This document shows, one piece after another, positions 38,024 through 39,966 of a stretch of 64,000 nt of DNA (positions are counted from its first letter, which is position 1; each line of letters opens with the position of its first letter). The notes beneath the pieces were generated by a model. It was not told the DNA's origin and did no database searches. It worked only from the letters and a program-made list of their open reading frames with translations. A program made the position numbers and the translations under genes. Origin of the DNA: Nitrosopumilus cobalaminigenes (GTDB lineage Archaea > Thermoproteota > Nitrososphaeria > Nitrososphaerales > Nitrosopumilaceae); NCBI RefSeq assembly GCF_013407145.1, contig NZ_CP026993.1, forward strand, positions 682,001 to 746,000. Reading direction: 5' to 3'.

Positions 38024-38926
38024 TTGAAAGCAGTTTATGTGATAATTGCACTAGTTGTAATTGTTGGTTATGCCTGGTATGCTGATTTATTGCCTATAGG
38101 AAACGATTCTTCCTCCATAGGCTTGTCCCCTTCTATTGAAAACATACAACAAATCTCCAATGTTGTAACTTCTGAAGATCATCAGATCATTTACTATTCA
38201 TTTGAGAATGTTCCGGATGTTCCAGATAAACAAATTCCAGTAAATGCATTAATGAAAGCAATAGAAAATTGGGAAAACTCTAATCCTAATTTGGAGTTTA
38301 TTGAATCCGAAAATTCTAACATTGAAATTAGATGGCAAAAATATGCATCCACTACACACACTGGACTTGCAACATGTAATTCTGTTCTTTTTGGAATTCT
38401 TAGTCATTGTGTTTTAGATATTTCAATTGGAGCCGAAGATTGTAATTCTAATTTTGTTCAAAACGATGAAAACATGGTCGTAAATATATTGATGCACGAA
38501 ATAGGTCATGCCTTAGGTTTAGGTCACACTAGTGAAGAAAATCATTTAATGTATTCAACTGAATCTCCAGAAATTAATTATGATACACAGGGATATGTTA
38601 TTCCTGATAGATTAGAAGAACTTTATGTTGGACAAAAACTATTGTTGGTTCAAGAAAAAGAAATTCAATCTGAAATTGAATCTCTGGATGTTAAAATTTC
38701 GCGTGAACAAACTCAGTATGATGAATATTACAAACAGTATGAATTCTATGAAGGAAAAACACTTTCCCAAGAAGACTACAAAAAAGCACAAATTGCATAT
38801 GATAGAATAAATTCACAAGCTGAAAAAGTCAATGGATTAATTGATCAACAAAATGAATTGATACACGAAATCAATGATATTATCAATCAATTAGGTTGTG
38901 ATCCTAACTTTGAAATTCAATCTTAA
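38024..38926 (+). CDS. Membrane-anchored matrixin-like zinc metalloprotease with coiled-coil tail
   Basis: A 300-residue protein from TTG 38024. An N-terminal helix (AVYVIIALVVIVGYAWYA) anchors or exports it. The metzincin site HEIGHALGLGH with LMY Met-turn is intact near residue 160. Residues 205-290 form a long charged coiled coil absent from the paralogue at 15699-16307. An ectodomain protease whose coiled coil may oligomerise or bind partners. Confidence 0.8.
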   Translation: MKAVYVIIALVVIVGYAWYADLLPIGNDSSSIGLSPSIENIQQISNVVTSEDHQIIYYSFENVPDVPDKQIPVNALMKAIENWENSNPNLEFIESENSNIEIRWQKYASTTHTGLATCNSVLFGILSHCVLDISIGAEDCNSNFVQNDENMVVNILMHEIGHALGLGHTSEENHLMYSTESPEINYDTQGYVIPDRLEELYVGQKLLLVQEKEIQSEIESLDVKISREQTQYDEYYKQYEFYEGKTLSQEDYKKAQIAYDRINSQAEKVNGLIDQQNELIHEINDIINQLGCDPNFEIQS

Positions 38927-39004
38927 CTAGCTGAATAATAAAACTAATCCTACTACTAAAGCTGCTACTGAAATCCCCATTGTAACATAAAATCTTGTCA
39001 TCAT
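38927..39004 (-). CDS. Tiny single-helix membrane protein (25 aa)
   Basis: MMTRFYVTMGISVAALVVGL then LLFS: a short polar start and one helix. The stop is directly against the stop of the metalloprotease gene. Third member of the set that also includes 12158-12241 and 18941-19033. Confidence 0.42.
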   Translation of the reverse strand: MMTRFYVTMGISVAALVVGLVLLFS

Positions 39005-39047
39005 CAAAATATGCTCATATTATCTGAGATTAATAGTTTAGAATTGA

Positions 39048-39128
39048 GAAAGCAAGCAAATTTGATATCCTTATCATCAGCCCTTTGGGGGTTACAGCAG
39101 ATATCAAATTCGCAATCACCTTGCTTTC
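39048..39128 (+). ncRNA. Structured RNA candidate with two long stems
   Basis: GAAAGCAAG (39048-39056) pairs with CTTGCTTTC (39120-39128). Inside, AATTTGATATC (39059-39069) pairs with GATATCAAATT (39100-39110). Together these are 20 perfect pairs with an asymmetric internal loop (2 nt and 9 nt) and a 30-nt apical loop containing CCC/GGG. ATATTATC at 39018-39025 is centred 26.5 nt before the first stem base. No frame spans it. Class unknown. Confidence 0.55.
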
Positions 39129-39202
39129 AATATTTGTATTAATTGCTATTTTCAAAAATTCTTAAAATAAAACATGTCTTGAATATTGATCAAAAAGGGT
39201 TG

Positions 39203-39221
39203 AAAAAATGATCCATTTTTT
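39203..39221. terminator. A/T hairpin, possible bidirectional terminator
   Basis: AAAAAATG (39203-39210) pairs with CATTTTTT (39214-39221) around ATC. This gives a T-run on either strand and sits between the two structured RNA candidates. Confidence 0.4.
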
Positions 39222-39324
39222 ACTTAAGCCTAAAAATGACTCTTTTTTTGAAATATTGCGTTTGTTCAAAATGGACACACGTTTTCTTTTAGTCTATTTT
39301 GTATCATAAATAATAGAGTCATCT

Positions 39325-39393
39325 GTTTGACGGCTTCATACATTTGCCTTAATCGACCATCTTGGAATTCATTTGCCGTCAAACACTCTTTTT
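39325..39393 (+). ncRNA. Small RNA candidate, GTTTGACGGC stem
   Basis: GTTTGACGGC (39325-39334) pairs perfectly with GCCGTCAAAC (39375-39384) over ten bases, closing a 40-nt loop, then CTCTTTTT ends near 39393. TATTTTGT at 39295-39302 is centred 26.5 nt before the stem; a better-looking ATAAATAA at 39306-39313 would start transcription inside it. No frame, tRNA or C/D features. Confidence 0.5.
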
Positions 39394-39432: not shown

Positions 39433-39966
39433 ATGGGCGATAGTGTTACTTTGGATTGGACTCCAAATTTTGCACTAAAATGGTCTGATTTTCAAGCAGA
39501 ATCAAATCCTGCAGTTTTTGAAGACTCTCACAGTGTCGTAAAATATCGATTTACGTGGATTGTAAATTCTGATAAGATAAATGACAAAATTGTTTTCATG
39601 ATTGAAGATATTCGTATTTTTACTGAGTTTCATCCTCTATTGTCTTGGGTAAGAATATCTGAATCAAACGATATGTTGCTTAATCATGAGCAAGGTAAAT
39701 TTGATCTTGCAGAATTGGTAAAGGTTGAAAATCTCCCGAAACTAAAAGCAAAATTCTACAATAAACATTTTCCAACTAGAGGTCAAAATGAGCCCCAACA
39801 AAAACAGTTTGCAAAAGAGGATTCAGGAAAAATGATACATGGCGAGGTTGAAAAATTGCAGAAATTGTTTGAAGAAAAATGTCTAAAATATCATGAAGAT
39901 ACTAAATATGGTCAGAATTTGGAAGAGCAATCAAAATATGACAGGCTCAATAATAAAATAAAATAA
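39433..39966 (+). CDS. DUF922-like protein with altered metal motif
   Basis: A 177-residue protein. LKWSDFQAES near the start and MLLNHEQGKFDLAEL around residue 82 resemble DUF922, a putative zinc-protease family with HEQxHFD. The second His is Lys here. No signal peptide is seen, unlike secreted family members. The last 40 residues are a charged helix. Catalysis is doubtful. The family match is from memory. Confidence 0.5.
   Translation: MGDSVTLDWTPNFALKWSDFQAESNPAVFEDSHSVVKYRFTWIVNSDKINDKIVFMIEDIRIFTEFHPLLSWVRISESNDMLLNHEQGKFDLAELVKVENLPKLKAKFYNKHFPTRGQNEPQQKQFAKEDSGKMIHGEVEKLQKLFEEKCLKYHEDTKYGQNLEEQSKYDRLNNKIK

Follow-up and report, generated by a model that had tools for sequence, protein, structure and literature searches.

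The window analysed here is a stretch of 64,000 nucleotides from the 1.56-Mb archaeal chromosome of Nitrosopumilus cobalaminigenes. It contains a hairpin at 39048-39128 that an earlier, sequence-only reading had proposed to be a structured RNA. We assign this hairpin to a predicted small RNA on the minus strand, called RNA-A, which lies between a short ORF in the same direction and a gene in the opposite direction. A second RNA-like element, RNA-B, which the sequence-only reading did not include, occurs on the plus strand. The features, in window coordinates, are:

38927-39004, minus: micro-ORF of 25 aa with a single TM segment, MMTRFYVTMGISVAALVVGLVLLFS; a similar ORF in at least 66 of 100 loci
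39029-39042, minus: predicted leaderless promoter of the micro-ORF, TCTAAACTATTAAT; 6.4 bits on a tRNA promoter matrix
39048-39142, minus: RNA-A, predicted small RNA of ~95 nt (covariation in 100 homologues; strand from wobble asymmetry and folding); the hairpin 39128-39048 plus a 5′ leader to ~39142, with the 5′ end set by TATA spacing and the 3′ end approximate
39048-39055, minus: 3′ arm of P1 (helix 1), partner 39121-39128
39060-39070, minus: 3′ arm of P2 (helix 3), partner 39099-39109
39078-39096, minus: apical arm, with a 2-nt UA bulge, a 4-bp stem and a CCAAA loop at 39084-39088
39099-39109, minus: 5′ arm of P2
39112-39120, minus: 7-nt bulge (39114-39120) and GC clamp (39112-39113, partner 39056-39057)
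39121-39128, minus: 5′ arm of P1
39155-39178, minus: candidate promoter of RNA-A, ACATGTTTTATTTTAAGAATTTTT, with a conservation of 1.25-1.68 bits across 100 loci
39187-39215, minus: conserved upstream element, GGATCATTTTTTCAACCCWTTTTGATCAA; its core reaches 1.6-1.7 bits across 100 loci from four genera
39280-39293, plus: candidate promoter of RNA-B, CGTTTTCTTTTAGT, whose TATA is centred 26.5 nt upstream of 39316
39316-39385, plus: RNA-B, second conserved RNA-like element; arms 39325-39334 and 39375-39384, then a T run
39433-39966, plus: divergent gene of 177 aa, no family assigned; a homologue in 94 of 100 loci

Structure, covariation and strand of RNA-A

The position and geometry originally described for the hairpin are exact. 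Arms 39048-39056/39120-39128 (9 bp) and 39059-39069/39100-39110 (11 bp) form 20 pairs, with an internal loop of 2 nt (39057-39058) versus 9 nt (39111-39119) and a 30-nt apical loop (39070-39099) that contains CCC/GGG. This segment folds at -24.5 kcal/mol (z = -4.34), a value equalled by none of 200 shuffles. No ORF of 60 aa or more crosses it, in agreement with the statement that no protein frame does so. The comparative model of RNA-A, in the minus sense and from 5′ to 3′, consists of an A/U-rich leader, P1 (8 bp), the 7-nt bulge, the 2-bp GC clamp, a 2x2 loop, P2 (11 bp), the apical arm (UA bulge, 4-bp stem and CCAAA loop, in this order) and an A-rich 3′ side. A single RNA spanning 39048-39230 was rejected, as RNAalifold found no common structure in this wider block.

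The covariation that had been predicted is present. In an alignment of 100 homologues that was fitted to the structural model, and whose counts therefore lean towards that model, 22 of the 27 pairs show two-sided changes, in 252 cells versus 66.4 in shuffles. Standard pairs occupy 95.8% of the cells in this alignment, and 23-51% once the partner is slid by 1-3 columns. Compensatory variation at the same pairs is also seen in MAFFT alignments built without structure. Along an independent tree, built from the protein of the divergent neighbour, we counted 87 compensatory changes, distributed over 23 of 27 pairs, versus 2-8 in slid controls. Helix 1 is paired in 99.0% of cells, with two-sided changes in five of its eight pairs, while the GC clamp (helix 2) is 96.4% paired and includes C-G to U-A changes. 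All 11 pairs of helix 3 change on both sides. Judging from these comparisons, the hairpin is a structured RNA, previously undescribed, that has been kept by natural selection.

The apical stem (helices 4 and 5) also covaries, with C-G, U-A and A-U interchanging. The sequence CCCAAAG, by contrast, does not vary in a 47-sequence alignment and is nearly constant across the 100 homologues. Given that the CCAAA loop is near-invariant while its stem swaps pair types, the loop might be read by a partner. Two g11 genomes (loci L146 and L152) have a diverged apical loop, with CACATGAAGGG in place of CCCCCAAAGGG.

The hairpin had been assigned to the plus strand, but two kinds of evidence favour the minus strand. 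Read as the minus strand, an unfitted alignment contains 80 G-U pairs and 30 A-C mismatches, and the fitted 100-sequence alignment has 204 and 50 such cells, respectively. Counted as events, 98 changes lead from Watson-Crick pairs to G-U and 27 to A-C. Moreover, of 98 sequences, 79 fold into a more stable hairpin in the minus sense (Wilcoxon p ~5e-11, the sequences being related). This wobble asymmetry and the folding energies place RNA-A on the minus strand, and on these grounds we rejected a plus-strand RNA at 39048-39128. There is good support for a new gene on the minus strand that encodes a structured small RNA, and we consider it highly probable.

Distribution and genomic context

A DNA search of 95 same-genus genomes, the source genome included, matched most of a 186-bp block in most of them, usually in one place each. 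With a minus-strand covariance model, RNA-A was found in 105 of 250 genomes of the family. When 400 genomes from the order were searched with a refined model, 102 contained it; these fall into four of 66 genera, all of them Nitrosopumilaceae (Nitrosopumilus and three related genera). Matching contigs belong to Nitrosopumilus, Nitrosarchaeum, Candidatus Nitrosomaritimum or unclassified relatives, apart from one chance bacterial match. Given the limitation to four genera, RNA-A does not have a universal archaeal function. It is almost always single-copy, and most weak second matches are simply the one hairpin read on its other strand. At one locus, L057, the 3′ half of RNA-A is partly repeated in tandem, as a degenerate copy ~200 nt away (G032:C20:48727-48789) with 81% identity to part of the query. 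Plasmids and phages yielded no match to the RNA-A locus, and a mobile element was rejected on this basis.

Upstream of RNA-A in the minus sense is a conserved block (39155-39215) that holds a plausible TATA box. The putative promoter ACATGTTTTATTTTAAGAATTTTT is conserved in all four genera, and the spacing of its TATA from ~39139-39142 resembles that of tRNA promoters of this genome; its score on a matrix built from these promoters is weak (2.3). Within the whole genome, GGATCATTTTTTCAACCCWTTTTGATCAA has one intergenic occurrence, which is at the RNA-A locus. We rejected it as a genome-wide operator, since the only two other matches have 3 mismatches each and are both within ORFs. No T-run terminator follows the hairpin on its 3′ side in the minus sense. 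As for the TATA box that had been proposed before the first stem base, an AT-rich ATATTA does occur at ~39017-39024, but it is poorly conserved (0.28 and 0.64 bits).

The conserved sequence next to the hairpin on that side is TTAATAG (39030-39036), which fits a leaderless micro-ORF on the minus strand, and its conservation is explained by the micro-ORF's own leaderless promoter, TCTAAACTATTAAT. The presence of TCTAAACTATTAAT tracks that of the micro-ORF. Entropies of 0.66, 0.36 and 1.36 at the three codon positions exhibit the third-position variability typical of coding sequence and, on this measure, the micro-ORF is under coding selection. Its peptide matches no family at the curated cut-off. 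A gene for a Matrixin-type (Peptidase_M10) metalloprotease (38024-38926, plus strand) ends at the stop codon of the micro-ORF, tail to tail with it. On the other side, 94 of 100 loci have a homologue of the 177-aa gene, located upstream of RNA-A and oriented away from it. The 177-aa protein belongs to no Pfam family, and to no NCBIfam family at its cut-off.

RNA-B carries GAGTCATC-N-GTTTGACGGC followed at a distance by GCCGTCAAACA, which are near-invariant in the four genera (alignments of 47 and 42 loci). The sequence TTTCTTTTAATC is likewise conserved in four genera, at a fixed distance from GAGTCATC. Positions 39325-39385 fold with a z-score of -3.92, and G-U exceeds A-C in the plus sense, favouring the plus strand. 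Covariation is not significant (one pair; 59 of 500 shuffles), because the helix hardly varies. A model of RNA-B matched 61 genomes among 400 from the order, exclusively in the four genera that have RNA-A, and the copies that we checked lie on the opposite strand, divergently from RNA-A and at a distance of 200-300 nt. A base-pairing partnership between the two RNAs was rejected, as they share complementary stretches of at most 7 nt even when G-U pairs are included.

Identity and possible role of RNA-A

None of the known RNA classes compared here accounts for RNA-A. Rfam 15 (4227 models) has no match in the window at the gathering cut-off and nothing relevant at E-values up to 10, and ARAGORN found no tRNA or tmRNA gene at the hairpin. 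The RNase P and SRP RNAs are, like RNA-A, stable structured archaeal RNAs, but they are encoded elsewhere in this genome, outside RNA-A (RF00373 at 988888 and RF01857 at 114399). Archaea have abundant C/D and H/ACA sRNAs, and the size of RNA-A is compatible with an unusual form of such a modification guide. However, C (RUGAUGA) and D (CUGA) boxes occur together in 0 of 100 homologues, an ACA is present just 3′ of the hairpin in only 2 of 100, and the longest complementarity to rRNA is no better than in shuffled sequences. In addition, the loop between P1 and P2 is one-sided (the 7-nt bulge and GC clamp), unlike the two-sided pseudouridylation pocket of H/ACA RNAs. We therefore consider a guide very improbable, and we rejected the Rfam, tRNA, RNase P, SRP, C/D, H/ACA and rRNA-guide identities; the exclusion of tRNA, RNase P, SRP and C/D RNAs had already been suggested from the sequence. 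It is equally hard to believe that the hairpin is an element of DNA, such as a protein-bound dyad, a cruciform, or a replication or recombination site. Its inverted repeats do adjoin conserved AT-rich DNA, but the stems change in a compensatory manner throughout, the asymmetric bulge is conserved, and a DNA dyad would not show the strand-specific excess of G-U over A-C. A literature search, which did not extend to the Weinberg 2017 survey, found no account of RNA-A, nor did it find any account of a structured regulatory RNA in this group of ammonia-oxidizing archaea.

Another explanation is that RNA-A is a cis-acting structured 5′ UTR that controls the 25-aa membrane peptide, similar to a riboswitch, thermometer or attenuator. 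The micro-ORF is indeed under coding selection and is downstream in the same direction in at least 66 of 100 loci, ~35 nt past the modelled 3′ end of the RNA. Nevertheless, such a leader is unlikely, given the conserved leaderless promoter that sits between RNA-A and the ATG. Moreover, RNA-A is kept where the micro-ORF is missing, namely in the g13 loci that we inspected and in some Nitrosopumilus loci; it is therefore more than a leader of the micro-ORF. A structural scaffold deserves more weight, although we still think it rather doubtful. In this case, RNA-A would assemble into an RNP with an RNA-binding protein specific to the clade, much as SRP or Y-type RNAs do, and would not base-pair with a target; P1 and P2 would be a handle, and the bulge and apical arm would be protein sites. 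The conserved bulged architecture, the invariant loop, the nearly free stem sequence and the single copy are all consistent with a scaffold. By contrast, no RNA-binding domain can be recognised in the neighbouring proteins.

The reading we prefer, which we regard as moderately probable in its full form, is that RNA-A is an independent sRNA gene of ~95 nt that has its own TATA box and acts in trans via its apical arm. The RNA would be read from the minus strand, from ~39142 to ~39048, probably driven by the TATA promoter at 39155-39178 with a regulatory site at 39187-39215. It would fold into one long hairpin, in which P1, the asymmetric 7-nt bulge and P2 lead to the apical arm. The RNA could then function in trans as a riboregulator, or as an RNP that docks a protein or a target RNA through this arm. 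Of the mechanisms considered, we infer that trans action through the apical arm and its CCAAA loop is the likeliest.

Comparison with other small RNAs and significance

The UCCC-loop sRNAs of Staphylococcus aureus resemble RNA-A in that a C-rich apical loop is kept while the stem varies. However, these sRNAs pair with SD sequences, whereas many thaumarchaeal mRNAs are leaderless. Among archaea, Methanosarcina mazei sRNA154 is expressed only under nitrogen deficiency and stabilises the nifH, glnK1 and glnA1 transcripts (PMC11549558). Like RNA-A as we propose it, sRNA154 is a single archaeal trans-acting sRNA; this likeness is one of class and not of compared sequence, and the host lineages differ. 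The Tan1 ncRNA of marine group II Euryarchaeota is 229 nt long, has a complex fold and is abundant in a metatranscriptome (PMC5069720). Tan1 and RNA-A are both lineage-specific, structured and previously unannotated ncRNAs, and the Tan1 host is an abundant marine archaeon, but it belongs to another phylum than the host of RNA-A.

Tentatively, RNA-A on the minus strand and the unrelated RNA-B on the plus strand might share one regulatory region and, together with the micro-peptide and the 177-aa gene, constitute a dedicated regulatory module. If this is true, the module would be specific to Nitrosopumilus and its relatives, and nothing equivalent would exist among the RNA systems known from archaea. 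The ammonia-oxidizing archaea of this group rank among the most abundant marine microbes. For RNA-A, the covariation is strong and the coordinates are exact; it also has an assigned strand, an apical loop that can be tested and a second RNA-like element alongside.
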